A stretch of 64,000 nt of DNA from Thermanaeromonas toyohensis ToBE (GTDB taxonomy: Bacteria; Bacillota; DSM-521; Neomoorellales; Neomoorellaceae), in contig NZ_LT838272.1 in assembly GCF_900176005.1 (NCBI RefSeq), forward strand, positions 1,879,587 through 1,943,586. Direction: 5' to 3'. The position numbers and the translations under genes were made by a program. The first letter of the stretch is position 1. Each line of letters opens with the position of its first letter. The notes below the pieces were generated by a model. That model did no database searches and was not told where the DNA came from. It was given only the letters and a program-made list of their open reading frames with translations. This document shows, in pieces, positions 18,193 to 54,567 of the stretch.

Positions 18193-18271
18193 GCAGGGGC
18201 GTAGCTCAATTTGGCAGAGTAGCGGACTCCAAATCCGTTGGTTGCAGGTTCGAGTCCTGTCGCCCCTGCCA
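18193..18271 (+). repeat. attL (79-bp direct repeat, copy 1)
   Basis: The sequence from GCAGGGGCG to CTGCCA is identical to 54489-54567; flanks differ on both sides. The crossover can lie anywhere within it. Unusually, the repeat spans the complete tRNA rather than only its 3' part. Confidence 0.9.
18195..18271 (+). tRNA. tRNA-Trp (CCA), left copy
   Basis: A 77-nt tRNA with acceptor AGGGGCG/CGCCCCT, anticodon stem CGGACT...AATCCG with anticodon CCA at 18229-18231, T arm GCAGG-TTCGAGT-CCTGT, G discriminator and encoded CCA. It is identical to the copy at 54491-54567. It is the attachment target of the prophage; the integrase gene begins 74 bp downstream. Confidence 0.97.
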
Positions 18272-37322: not shown

Positions 37323-37720
37323 ATGATCGACGTGGTCGACAAGGAGATGATCCGCAGGCTCCATTACGTAGTAGGGCTTTAGAGGATGCTAAGCCCTTTC
37401 ATCGTGCAGACCTTCCGCCAGTATATCACCGGTACTTGGCGGCCTTAAAAGAATATCATGCCCAACCAGAAAAGGAATTTGTCCAGATCCTTATGTACCA
37501 CCGGGAAGTGGGATGGGACGCTCTAACCTCGGCCTTAAATAAAGCTTTAGACGAAAGAGTTTACCATGCCCCTGGAGTTAAAAGTATCCTTGAGCAGTTA
37601 ACCGGTAAATGCCTCATTTCCCAAGGAACCCAAGACCTATCAGCTTACCGGGTATCTAGGCCGAACCTAAAACAGTTCGACCTCCTGGGAAGCTGTAATA
37701 ACGGGAGGATAGTCCATTGA
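37323..37720 (+). pseudogene. istA transposase remnant
   Basis: The N-terminus MIDVVDKEMIRRLHYVVGL is followed by a stop at 37380; another frame resumes AKPFHRADLPPVYHRYL and runs to 37720 with LTSALNKALDERVYHAPGVKSIL, the end of IstA. The helix-turn-helix and the whole DDE catalytic core are missing, so this is an internal deletion with a frame change. The stop overlaps the istB start, as in intact IS21. Confidence 0.8.
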
Positions 37721-38493
37721 GCACAGAACTTCTTCTTAAAGAGTATTTACACAAACTAAAACTTCCAGCGGTGGCCCGGCACTACAAAAGTCTTGCCCGC
37801 ACAGCCGCAGAAAACAACCGCACTTATGAAGAATACCTATGTGCTCTTTTGGAACAAGAGGTATTGAGCAGGGAAGAAAGCGCCCTTAAGAACCGGATCC
37901 GCCGGGCCAACTTCCCCTACTTCAAAACCCTAGAAGAATTCGACTTTACTGCCTTACCAAGCTTGAGCAAACCTAAGGTGTTAACTTTAAGCCGGGGAGA
38001 ATACATCAAAGCCAAGGAAAATGTCATCTTCCTTGGTAACAGTGGAACCGGTAAAACCCATTTGGCCATTGCCCTGGCTTTATGTGCCTGCCGGCAGGGT
38101 TACCGTGTACGCTTTTATACTGCCCCTGGCCTGGTTACAGAACTCTTAGCAGCTGCCCGGGAACATAAATTACTTTCCTTGGAAAAGCAGTGGCTAAAGC
38201 AAGACCTGGTAGTGGTAGACGAGCTGGGCTATGTACCCTACACCACTGAAGGAGCCCAGCTTCTCTTCCGCTTCTTGGCTGGCCGGTATGAAAGGGGGAG
38301 TGTGCTCATTACTTCCAATCTCGAATTTAGCGAATGGGTACAAGTATTTGGAGATGAAAGGATGACTGCTGCCCTCCTGGACAGGCTCACCCATCATGCC
38401 CATATCCTGGTCATGAACGGGGAAAGCTATCGCTTCCGCCAGAGTTTAAGGCGACGCCAAGAGGAAGGATTGGTTAGTTCTGCCTCTGCATAG
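37717..38493 (+). CDS. istB: IS21 transposition helper ATPase IstB
   Basis: A 258-residue AAA+ protein. Landmarks: N-terminal helical part RHYKSLARTAAENNRTYEEYL, Walker A FLGNSGTGKTHLAIAL (about 105-120), Walker B DLVVVDELGYVP, VLITSNLEFSEW and DRLTHHAHILVM. It is full length. TTG 37717 overlaps the istA stop. IstB assists target choice by the transposase and has no partner here. Confidence 0.93.
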   Translation: MSTELLLKEYLHKLKLPAVARHYKSLARTAAENNRTYEEYLCALLEQEVLSREESALKNRIRRANFPYFKTLEEFDFTALPSLSKPKVLTLSRGEYIKAKENVIFLGNSGTGKTHLAIALALCACRQGYRVRFYTAPGLVTELLAAAREHKLLSLEKQWLKQDLVVVDELGYVPYTTEGAQLLFRFLAGRYERGSVLITSNLEFSEWVQVFGDERMTAALLDRLTHHAHILVMNGESYRFRQSLRRRQEEGLVSSASA

Positions 38494-44190: not shown

Positions 44191-44928
44191 CTAAGGCTCA
44201 TGGTCTGGGTGCCAAGACTGCTCGCCTTCAGCCATATCGATGAAATACCATACGCCGTCCTGGCCTTTTGCAAAGTCCACGCTCCAATAACCTTCTCCTA
44301 TTGCCCGTCCAATCTCCTCGGCATAAGCAGTCAAAAGCTCAACCTCTTCCGGTGTCTCTCTGTTCAACTCAGCCAGAATACTAGGCCAATTCTCCGGCAA
44401 TAGGCCTATCTTGTCTGGATACTTCACGGCCAGATCGTTAACTCTATACCACCATTCGCCTATCGCCTCCGCCACCCAATACGGGTGATGACATTCAACC
44501 TTACCATCCCGGACGAAATACCTTCTTTCTTTAGCCACAGGCATTCTACCGTAGAAGGCTTTAAAGGCCGCTTCAAGAGGAATATATTTGCGAAACACTA
44601 GAGCTTCCGGCTGAAGGCCTAGTATATCCGCAATCTCATTGAACTCCACCACCCGGTAAATATTACTCCAAAGCTTGGCTGACGAGGCCACGTAGCAGGA
44701 GTTCTGCCAGTCATGCTTACCCGAGGCCATATCAGTACGGACAAATAGGGGATAACCAAGCTGTTCGGTTGCGTCTATGATTCTTGCCTTTATATCTTCC
44801 GGTAAGGGTTCTCCGTCTAGCATTTTCAGTAGCGGTCTATAGCCGGTCTCGACGATAATTGTTTCAGGTTTGGGCACCCGTGTATCCTTCACCCTCGGCC
44901 ACCAGTAGAGCATACTGTTCTTGTCCAT
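44191..44928 (-). CDS. Phage-encoded ATP-grasp-fold protein
   Basis: A 245-residue protein. The ATP-grasp layout is visible: LGYPLFVRTDMASGKHDWQ (ATP-binding Lys region), EALVFRKYIPLE, KERRYFVRDGKVECHHPYW, and YWSVDFAKGQDGVWYFIDMAEGEQSW with the metal-binding Asp/Glu set. ATP-grasp enzymes of the R2K type occur in phages and may modify proteins by ligation; the substrate here is unknown. It starts 4 bp after RusA. Confidence 0.7.
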   Translation of the reverse strand: MDKNSMLYWWPRVKDTRVPKPETIIVETGYRPLLKMLDGEPLPEDIKARIIDATEQLGYPLFVRTDMASGKHDWQNSCYVASSAKLWSNIYRVVEFNEIADILGLQPEALVFRKYIPLEAAFKAFYGRMPVAKERRYFVRDGKVECHHPYWVAEAIGEWWYRVNDLAVKYPDKIGLLPENWPSILAELNRETPEEVELLTAYAEEIGRAIGEGYWSVDFAKGQDGVWYFIDMAEGEQSWHPDHEP

Positions 44929-45854: not shown

Positions 45855-46247
45855 TTACAGCCATTCTTCTGGAATGTCCTCCGGCGATACTTCTGTACCT
45901 AAATCGGACAACCGCACCTTTTTCTGGGCTGTGCCTGCCTTCTGTTTCTTTCCCTGGATTTCTTCCCACTCCCTCCGGTAGCAGCACATCCGCCACCGGA
46001 AGTACGGCCAGCCGTATATCCGTGAGGCCTCCGGGTCGTAAACTGGTACCCACCCCCTAGACCACAGGCCACAGTCTTCAAATCGCTGGCACTTCTGGCA
46101 GGCCTCGAAGCTCCGGTGCAGTATGATAATTGGCACTGCATTTTGGCGGAGCACCTCCGGAGGAAACCCCCGCAGGTCTATGCCCCTAGTGGCTAAAAAG
46201 AGGACTATTCCTTCTACCTCCTCCAGCTTCTCAGCCGCCGCCTGCAT
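45855..46247 (-). CDS. Cys-rich early phage protein
   Basis: A 130-residue protein with CQKCQRFEDCGLWSRGW and FRWRMCCYRREWEEIQ; the Cys set could bind zinc or iron-sulphur. The C-terminal third is charged. ATG 46247 touches the stop of the helicase-loader-like gene. Role unknown. Confidence 0.55.
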   Translation of the reverse strand: MQAAAEKLEEVEGIVLFLATRGIDLRGFPPEVLRQNAVPIIILHRSFEACQKCQRFEDCGLWSRGWVPVYDPEASRIYGWPYFRWRMCCYRREWEEIQGKKQKAGTAQKKVRLSDLGTEVSPEDIPEEWL

Positions 46248-46795
46248 CACTTCTCACCCGCCTTTGGTAGGGCCACCACTTTCCCGCCGCCCAGGGCCTT
46301 TTGTTGGGCTATCTTGGCCGTGAGTTCTCTTACCTCACGGGGCGTAACTACACTCTCACGCTGGCGGCCTATCACCTGCTCGTACACTTTCATGAACTGC
46401 GCTCGGACTACCTCAGGTTGCTCGGAAAGGCATATTTCTCTCCAGCCCAAATACCTGACTGCCCTGGCTACGTCTTCCGGCAATGCTGCAAGGGCCTCCG
46501 CCTCCCTGTAGGAGCCGTACCGCTTCACAGCTTGCAACACCAGTGCCCAAGCTTCCCCAGGCGATAAGGTCTCTGGCTGCATTATCTCAGCGGCTGCCTG
46601 GCGAATCTCGGCTACAGTTGGGAAATACCGAACCTCCGAAAGTACCTTCAGAAGGGCTTTCTCCACCACCTGGTACGGCAGGTCTTGGAGCAACCTGTAC
46701 CACAGCTCTACGGTCGGCCCTAAATCCTTCTCCTGTAGCGCAGGAAAATTAGCCGCAGCAAGGGCTACCAGGTAAGCAGCTTCTTGTTCTGTCAT
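46247..46795 (-). CDS. Replicative helicase loader/inhibitor-like protein
   Basis: A 182-residue protein. The N-terminal half (EAAYLVALAAANFPALQEKDLGPTVELWYRLLQDLPYQVVEKALLKVLS, FPTVAEIRQAA) matches the G39P-type helicase loader/inhibitor domain. The C-terminal half is helical and charged. It directly follows the replication initiator with a 4-bp overlap, which supports recruitment of the host DnaB-type helicase. Confidence 0.75.
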   Translation of the reverse strand: MTEQEAAYLVALAAANFPALQEKDLGPTVELWYRLLQDLPYQVVEKALLKVLSEVRYFPTVAEIRQAAAEIMQPETLSPGEAWALVLQAVKRYGSYREAEALAALPEDVARAVRYLGWREICLSEQPEVVRAQFMKVYEQVIGRQRESVVTPREVRELTAKIAQQKALGGGKVVALPKAGEK

Positions 46796-47715
46796 CCGGG
46801 GCTAGCCTCCTTTCGAGTTCTCCGTTCTACCCATTCCTGTAGGCTGGCAAAAGCACGGGGTATATTCTTTTGCGGCGGGGAGTTACCGTTATAGTGCGGC
46901 TGTTTCTTCGGCTTTAAGAGCAACGAGCGAAGGTAGATTAGGGGTTTTTCGGGGTTGAAACCGCTTTCTATGGCGTATCCCAGGTCGTTTATGGCGGTCA
47001 GCACAGCATCATAGCCGTGTTCGTTGTATAAACGGCCAATGAAGGGATAATCGCCCTTTTGGTGCTTGTCTTGGGGTATTACTTCCCTGTAAGCTCTGAC
47101 CAGTTCAGCAATTAGGGCAGCATTGGTAATTTTCTCCTGCCCCTCTTGGCCGTTAGGCGTCTCTTCTACGTAAGTAGAAGAGACTATATTATTTTCATCT
47201 TTTTTTGTTTTAGTTTTAGTTTCTGTTTTAGTTTTAGGGGGTGCTGGAGCCGTTGCGCCGCAACGGTTTGCCGACTTTTCGGTATCAGTTTCGGTATCAG
47301 ATTGGGTATCAGGTTGGGTATCAACTTGGGTATCAAATTTTGATACCAATTCTGTTTTGGTATCAACTTCGGTATCAATTTTTGATACCGAAAATTGTTT
47401 GGTATCAGATTGGGTATCAAATTTTGATACCTTATCGAAGGGTATAATCCTGTAAGCAGTCCTCTCGTTGCGCTTAAACGACGGCTTAAATTCGATTAGC
47501 CCCTTCTGCTTTAGCTCGTTTCTGGCCCGTTTCAACGTATTCTCAGACACGTCCATGAGGCCGCATAAGGCCTGATTGGTTATCTGGAACCACTCAGTCC
47601 ATCCGGCCCTGTTGTTTACCATTAGCAAGGTGTGGTAAAGCAACTGCGCGGATGAAGACAAGCGGTTGCACTGTAACCAATCGTAGAACGTGTTGAGCTG
47701 GTGGATATAATTCAT
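46792..47715 (-). CDS. Phage replication initiator (DnaD/O-like, N-terminal winged helix)
   Basis: A 307-residue protein. The N-terminal winged helix (NTFYDWLQCNRLSSSAQLLYH, ITNQALCGLMDVSENTLKRARNELKQKGLIEF) should bind the origin. Residues about 100-185 form a low-complexity Asp-Thr-rich linker encoded by the iteron array at 47281-47431. The C-terminal part (about 195-300) includes AYREVIPQDKHQKGDYPFIGRLYNEHGYDAVLTAI, as in DnaD-like proteins. The plan is that of lambda O: initiator with the origin in its own gene. ATG 47715 follows AGGTGGT. Confidence 0.82.
   Translation of the reverse strand: MNYIHQLNTFYDWLQCNRLSSSAQLLYHTLLMVNNRAGWTEWFQITNQALCGLMDVSENTLKRARNELKQKGLIEFKPSFKRNERTAYRIIPFDKVSKFDTQSDTKQFSVSKIDTEVDTKTELVSKFDTQVDTQPDTQSDTETDTEKSANRCGATAPAPPKTKTETKTKTKKDENNIVSSTYVEETPNGQEGQEKITNAALIAELVRAYREVIPQDKHQKGDYPFIGRLYNEHGYDAVLTAINDLGYAIESGFNPEKPLIYLRSLLLKPKKQPHYNGNSPPQKNIPRAFASLQEWVERRTRKEASPG
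47281..47431. repeat. Iteron array, probable phage replication origin
   Basis: GGTATCA occurs nine times directly and three times inverted in 151 bp. Five copies start exactly 12 bp apart (47281, 47293, 47305, 47317, 47329); others are at 47359, 47371, 47401 and 47413, with inverted copies at 47341, 47383 and 47425. Direct and inverted copies meet in three near-palindromes with A/T centres. The array lies inside the initiator gene. Confidence 0.8.
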
Positions 47716-47746
47716 GCTTATTACCACCTATTTCGGCTGGATATAA

Positions 47747-54488: not shown

Positions 54489-54567
54489 GCAGGGGCGTAG
54501 CTCAATTTGGCAGAGTAGCGGACTCCAAATCCGTTGGTTGCAGGTTCGAGTCCTGTCGCCCCTGCCA
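54489..54567 (+). repeat. attR (79-bp direct repeat, copy 2)
   Basis: Perfect copy of 18193-18271. Upstream sequence belongs to the prophage and downstream sequence to the host. Confidence 0.9.
54491..54567 (+). tRNA. tRNA-Trp (CCA), right copy
   Basis: Identical in all 77 nt to the left copy, with intact fold and CCA end. No good promoter is visible upstream, so it depends on prophage transcription, perhaps read-through from the ImmA genes, or is silent. Confidence 0.93.

Follow-up and report, generated by a model that had tools for sequence, protein, structure and literature searches.

Genes and features of the locus

The window (i.e., the whole stretch of 64,000 nucleotides of Thermanaeromonas toyohensis ToBE analysed here) contains a prophage of approximately 36 kb, flanked by two identical tRNA-Trp (cca) genes (18193–18271 and 54489–54567; 79 identical bases). 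An integrase gene begins 20 bp from the left tRNA-Trp copy; tRNA-Trp is thus the probable integration site of the phage, which would restore the gene upon insertion. In the structural region of the prophage, a solitary gene for an IstB-type ATPase of the IS21 family runs in the opposite direction (37717–38493); an ATP-grasp gene of the R2K clade (44191–44928) adjoins a RusA resolvase gene in the early region. The initiator gene, its neighbour, and the features inside it are as follows:

46247–46795, minus strand: gene for a G39P-like helicase loader, which overlaps the end of the initiator gene
46792–47727, minus strand: initiator gene (PF13730 and PHROG matches)
46915–47124, minus strand: C-terminal helical domain, aa 198–267 (predicted helices, pLDDT about 48–78)
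47159–47184: perfect 11-bp inverted repeat, GTCTCTTCTAC-TTAC-GTAGAAGAGAC, adjoining the AT-rich element
47185–47234: AT-rich element (coding strand AAAACTAAAACAGAAACTAAAACTAAAAC), 84% AT, putative DNA-unwinding element
47281–47431: iteron array inside the initiator gene, 12 perfect copies of GGTATCA/TGATACC
47329–47347: inverted pair 3, GGTATCA-5 A/T-TGATACC, 19 bp with an A/T centre
47371–47389: inverted pair 2, same layout, 19 bp with an A/T centre
47413–47431: inverted pair 1, same layout, 19 bp with an A/T centre
47437–47715, minus strand: winged helix-turn-helix (wHTH) domain, aa 1–93 (predicted structure, pLDDT 92–98)
47506–47544, minus strand: recognition helix, aa 58–70 (predicted structure; covarying columns)

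The initiator matched PF13730 (HTH_36) with 30.1 bits (curated cut-off 25), as well as phrog_19658 (replication initiation, E 2.6e-26) and phrog_186 (DnaD-like helicase loader, E 1.9e-16); the PF06970 (RepA_N) model was not among its matches at E up to 1, an NCBIfam search gave nothing useful, and Rfam showed no structured RNA family in the region. Because the listed GTG start (47727) falls inside an AGGTGG ribosome-binding site, the ATG at 47715 is the probable true start, giving a protein of 307 aa (MNYI...). In the predicted structure, the linker around aa 100–195 is disordered, and the array lies in the DNA that encodes it, between the DNA-binding domain, whose recognition helix is presumed to contact the iterons, and the C-terminal domain, which is conserved in some relatives and may serve as a helicase-loader or primase contact. 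The best matches of the wHTH among solved structures (VIA-align) were RepA_N initiators (Z 8.7–10.2, about 2.9–5.5 Å), with 4pql_B on top (Z 10.2, rmsd 2.9, 91 aligned); other wHTH proteins scored close to these (Z 9.0–9.3), and the RepA_N-like fold is therefore not exclusive. A wHTH profile searched against the sequences of solved structures yielded weak wHTH regulators at most.

The adjacent loader gene matched PF11417 (26.5 bits, cut-off 22) and phrog_2289 (helicase loader, E 4.5e-9), and its match to the SPP1 G39P structure (1no1) was weak (E 0.07). A search for a DnaB-type helicase in the prophage was negative, the helicase matches in the genome all lying outside it; the host genome encodes one DnaB-type helicase plus a DnaD-type protein.

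Layout of the iteron array

GGTATCA occurs 19 times in the window, as compared to 5.1 expected, and 12 of these 19 copies lie within 47281–47431; an earlier sequence-only reading, which had counted twelve copies inside the initiator gene, proved exact on recount. The first five copies (47281, 47293, 47305, 47317, and 47329) follow one another in strict 12-bp steps, as had also been claimed, and the others begin at 47341 (inverted), 47359, 47371, 47383 (inverted), 47401, 47413, and 47425 (inverted), with a start-to-start spacing of 12 or 18 bp. The three near-palindromes with A/T centres of that reading were recovered as the 19-bp pairs at 47329, 47371, and 47413, inside each of which the heptamers start 12 bp apart; modules of one inverted and two direct copies recur with a 42-bp period. 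Read along the coding strand of the gene, nine heptamers are TGATACC and the other three are inverted, and all 12 share the same codon phase on the minus strand. Direct copies encode (Q/E)xDT, which bears out the repeating Asp-Thr linker of the sequence-only reading, and use the codons GAT and ACC in 9/9 DT dipeptides; inverted copies encode VS. The GGTATCA count gave no further origin cluster elsewhere in the window, and a second array was absent from the 3.33-Mb genome, where the other match was the array against its own reverse complement. A GC-rich palindrome, CCGTTGC-GCC-GCAACGG (47250–47266), sits between the array and the AT-rich element.

Arrays in relatives of the initiator

Relatives were gathered with the whole protein, a wHTH-only alignment, a consensus-like wHTH probe, and the focal wHTH, most being retrieved by the wHTH alone; removal of near-duplicates left 67 divergent domains, for which a leave-one-out 12-bp array score was computed (threshold 25 bits). 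Comparison of linkers in relatives, which had been proposed as a check, showed that 58/67 relatives have, at the same place behind the wHTH, an array scoring 25 bits or more; the same score was reached by 0/67 codon-shuffled linkers, 0/67 wHTH-coding stretches, and 1/50 C-terminal stretches. Each of these 58 has its own array, with words that are unrelated between relatives (TGATACC, CCTCCAG, CCGACA, TTGACCAA, TAGGCAC, TGTCNCACAA, CACAAA, and others), and the linker peptides differ as well (e.g., DTQS, PVKP, VGTE, EQQP, and TQTG). It thus appears that initiator and start site are passed on together and evolve as a single unit.

One clade of 26 sequences (L052–L099 in part, and L112), recognizable by the linker ETPVTEQEP... 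and referred to here as the ETPV clade, retains the wHTH and has no AAAC ladder (see below) and, where scored, no array; in the array-less clade, a search extending over ~1.5 kb gave no array at another position. The layout is therefore not obligatory, and the origin of the ETPV clade must lie elsewhere. L131, in addition to these 26 sequences, likewise has the same wHTH and lacks the ladder and, where scored, the array.

The repeating unit is DNA rather than peptide

If the repeat were selected as protein, namely as a flexible linker of four-residue repeats, the repetition of the DNA would be a by-product. While the predicted disorder of the linker and the preservation of frame by most arrays are in keeping with such selection, the complete difference between same-place peptides of relatives is not, nor is the encoding of VS, rather than DT, by the inverted copies. 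With the peptide held fixed, synonymous permutation (n = 2000) yielded a mean of 1.25 heptamers and a maximum of 6, as compared to the 12 observed, and across 1000 codon shuffles no 7-mer occurred more than 7 times. When array units were compared in pairs, their identity was 0.79 at the first codon position and 0.755 at both the second and the third, third positions being as conserved as second ones, and 12-bp identity exceeded that of same-peptide synonymous permutations (p ≤ 0.05) in 28/46 cases. In several groups, inverted copies of the word immediately precede the direct copies.

Four relatives carry, within the initiator gene, arrays that rotate the reading frame, with periods of 13 bp (L012 and L114) or 11 bp (L110 and L130), and their peptides show no short-period repeat; the repeating unit is thus DNA and not peptide. 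Frame-rotating arrays, inverted copies, and synonymous nulls led us to reject a protein-level repeat as the cause, an explanation that we consider highly improbable. The same arrays show that 12 bp, which preserves the frame, is strongly preferred but not indispensable. The earlier emphasis on 12 being divisible by 3 therefore accounts for the preference, possibly because 12-bp units may come and go without shifting the frame, but divisibility is not required, as the 11- and 13-bp arrays and the 23-bp period of pSK41 illustrate.

AT-rich element, AAAC ladder, and hairpin

Among 50-bp stretches of the prophage, the AT-rich element ranks in the top 0.01% for AT content. Across the family, AT content is about 0.52 in the arrays and increases to 0.70 immediately beyond them, and a perfect stem of at least 8 bp follows the array in 15/57 cases, the focal gene included, as compared to 1.3 expected (the focal stem is 11 bp). 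The word AAAC is enriched after the arrays (161 occurrences, as compared to 94 ± 6 under synonymous permutation), in particular at 5-bp spacing (74 compared to 16 ± 4; 30 compared to 8.3 ± 2.6 in a new set), a period that differs from any codon period; on the template strand, this ladder reads TnGT every 5 nt (232 compared to 169 ± 7). The layout, including an AAAC-type ladder, is shared by phages of Riemerella (Bacteroidota; L129). In the focal gene itself, 46 bp separate array and AT-rich element, which exceeds the family median of 13.5 bp, and the ladder has a 6-bp step, which is divisible by 3; both points weigh against the origin reading favoured below.

In Bacillus subtilis, DnaD binds pairs of 5′-TnnT-3′ on one strand of the melted region of oriC (PMC10201434), and the ladder described here is similar in presenting TnGT every 5–6 nt on one strand; this is a resemblance only, as T-rich strands easily contain TnnT. 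By this analogy, the ladder may plausibly represent a DnaD-type single-stranded DNA signal.

A ladder was found in 43/58 relatives with an array, 2/9 without an array, and 0/26 members of the ETPV clade. This co-occurrence, together with the lack of a second array in the prophage, does not favour the possibility that the array binds the initiator mainly for control (i.e., titration, handcuffing, or autoregulation) and that the active start lies elsewhere. Plasmid iterons can have control roles, and the distance of the focal AT-rich element from the array would suit such a function; overall, we judge it unlikely.

Covariation of array word and recognition helix

Similarity of array words correlated with similarity of recognition helices when the rest of the domain was accounted for (partial Mantel r = 0.25, p = 0.0005); the rest of the domain shows a correlation with word similarity as well (r = 0.37), and correlations across relatives partly reflect shared ancestry. 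In an unselected scan of columns, R63, E58, and K62, all located in the helix, ranked first for covariation with the word. For 19 new arrays (an independent set), the nearest training helix predicted the word with a mean similarity of 0.589, as compared to 0.411 (p = 1e-4), shared ancestry being left partly in by the covariation and prediction tests alike. A Riemerella phage initiator with 37% domain identity combines the helix SVNTVRDA with the word TGATAC, similar to the focal initiator, in which SENTLKRA goes with TGATACC. Judged from these sequence comparisons, the initiator's own DNA-binding domain probably recognizes the array word.

Such covariation would be unexpected if the array were a neutral minisatellite that arose by slippage in a tolerant linker, as would the inverted copies; unchanging words beside freely varying spacers and same-place recurrence in 58/67 relatives also speak against slippage. 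Some arrays (e.g., L093, L097, and L051) have hardly any imperfections and look newly expanded, which is what slippage would produce, but as an account of the family we give it very little credence.

A putative replication origin inside the initiator gene

Anatomy, constraint at the DNA level, a family-wide layout with changing words, and word-helix covariation are established here. The explanation that we favour, with a probability of roughly 0.87, is that the array and the adjacent AT-rich element are the replication origin of the ~36-kb prophage, written in the part of the initiator gene that encodes the disordered linker. An origin inside the initiator gene had been proposed by the sequence-only reading, and the comparative evidence (i.e., the arrays and AT-rich elements of relatives and the word-helix covariation) supports this proposal. 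Under the favoured explanation, the N-terminal winged helix would bind the TGATACC words, which are spaced about one helical turn apart, as well as the three palindromic pairs; the bound initiators may build a nucleoprotein spiral that strains and melts the adjacent AT-rich element. The melted AAAC ladder would then expose a T-rich strand bearing TnGT every 5–6 nt, and the initiator, together with the adjacent G39P-like loader, may recruit the host replicative helicase. Since array and binding domain are located in one gene, they would be inherited together and could change specificity together.

A broader generalization, which we put forward tentatively and on balance regard as doubtful, is that a large class of phage initiators from Firmicutes (and some Bacteroidota) shares a three-part origin in the linker: a 12-bp array with a helix-readable word, an AAAC ladder serving as a strand-specific single-stranded DNA signal (tandem TnGT, DnaD-type) that the initiator or the DnaD of the host would read, and, in some cases, a hairpin. 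If this were true, origins, compatibility groups, and domain-origin swaps could be predicted from protein sequence. To our knowledge, most phages have no mapped origin; should the rule hold, the sequence of the initiator gene would suffice to locate the origin in any phage that encodes this type of initiator, and exchanges of recognition helices and arrays could put the specificity code to the test. The AAAC ladder provides a connection, open to experiment, with the strand-specific loading of helicases by DnaD-type proteins. The locus may also represent a clean case of one DNA stretch selected as both coding sequence and protein-binding site, in which the linker peptide would be shaped by the DNA.

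Comparison with known in-gene origins

Origins inside initiator genes are already established for lambda, SPP1, and pSK41 (PMC7466680, PMC6316719, PMC5703833). Full-text searches of the open-licence literature gave no description of the 12-bp rule or the AAAC ladder, which is weak evidence, as subscription papers fall outside it. In phage lambda, iterons are located in the middle of the initiator gene O with an AT-rich region alongside (PMC7466680), and the sequence-only reading had named lambda O as the known parallel, from which the focal array would differ by being larger and by including inverted pairs. The difference in size stands (12 copies compared to 4), but the inverted pairs do not distinguish the two, as the lambda iterons are individually imperfect inverted repeats of ~19 bp with A-rich centres (PMC7466680), similar to the three 19-bp pairs found here. 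According to its annotation, lambda has four iterons of 18 bp at 20–24-bp steps, whereas the focal array consists of 12 copies of a 7-bp word at 12-bp steps, mostly as single half-sites; lambda O and the focal initiator are only distantly related (phrog_345, E 2.5e-9).

SPP1 carries the oriL repeats and an AT-rich element inside the initiator gene, gp38 (PMC6316719), and a G39P-family helicase-loader gene adjoins its initiator gene, as it does here; however, SPP1 encodes its own helicase, gp40, and has a second origin, oriR, while the focal prophage has no DnaB-type helicase and one array. The N-domain of pSK41 RepA (RepA_N) is a wHTH of matching fold (4pql, 4pt7, and 5kbj), and the iterons in the pSK41 rep gene encode a dispensable linker and are followed by an AT-rich stretch, as in the focal layout; the 23-bp period of that array, however, rotates the frame, and the AAAC ladder is absent. 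The hybrid initiator of pPR9 owes its N-domain, a member of PF13730, to a phage replication protein; this domain was swapped together with the origin in a single block of ~500 bp, and the mini-replicon replicates (PMC5703833). The N-domain family PF13730 is thus common to pPR9 and the focal initiator, although pPR9 is a plasmid with a RepA-type C-domain. pUSA03 was considered as a stand-in for pPR9 and rejected, as its rep has the same protein accession as that of pSK41 in the record. SPP1 gp38 with G39P and the RepA_N plasmid initiators are closer parallels than lambda in gene order and fold, and, since lambda steps by 20–24 bp and pSK41 by 23 bp without a ladder, the focal case is a 12-bp, one-turn variant of in-gene origins.
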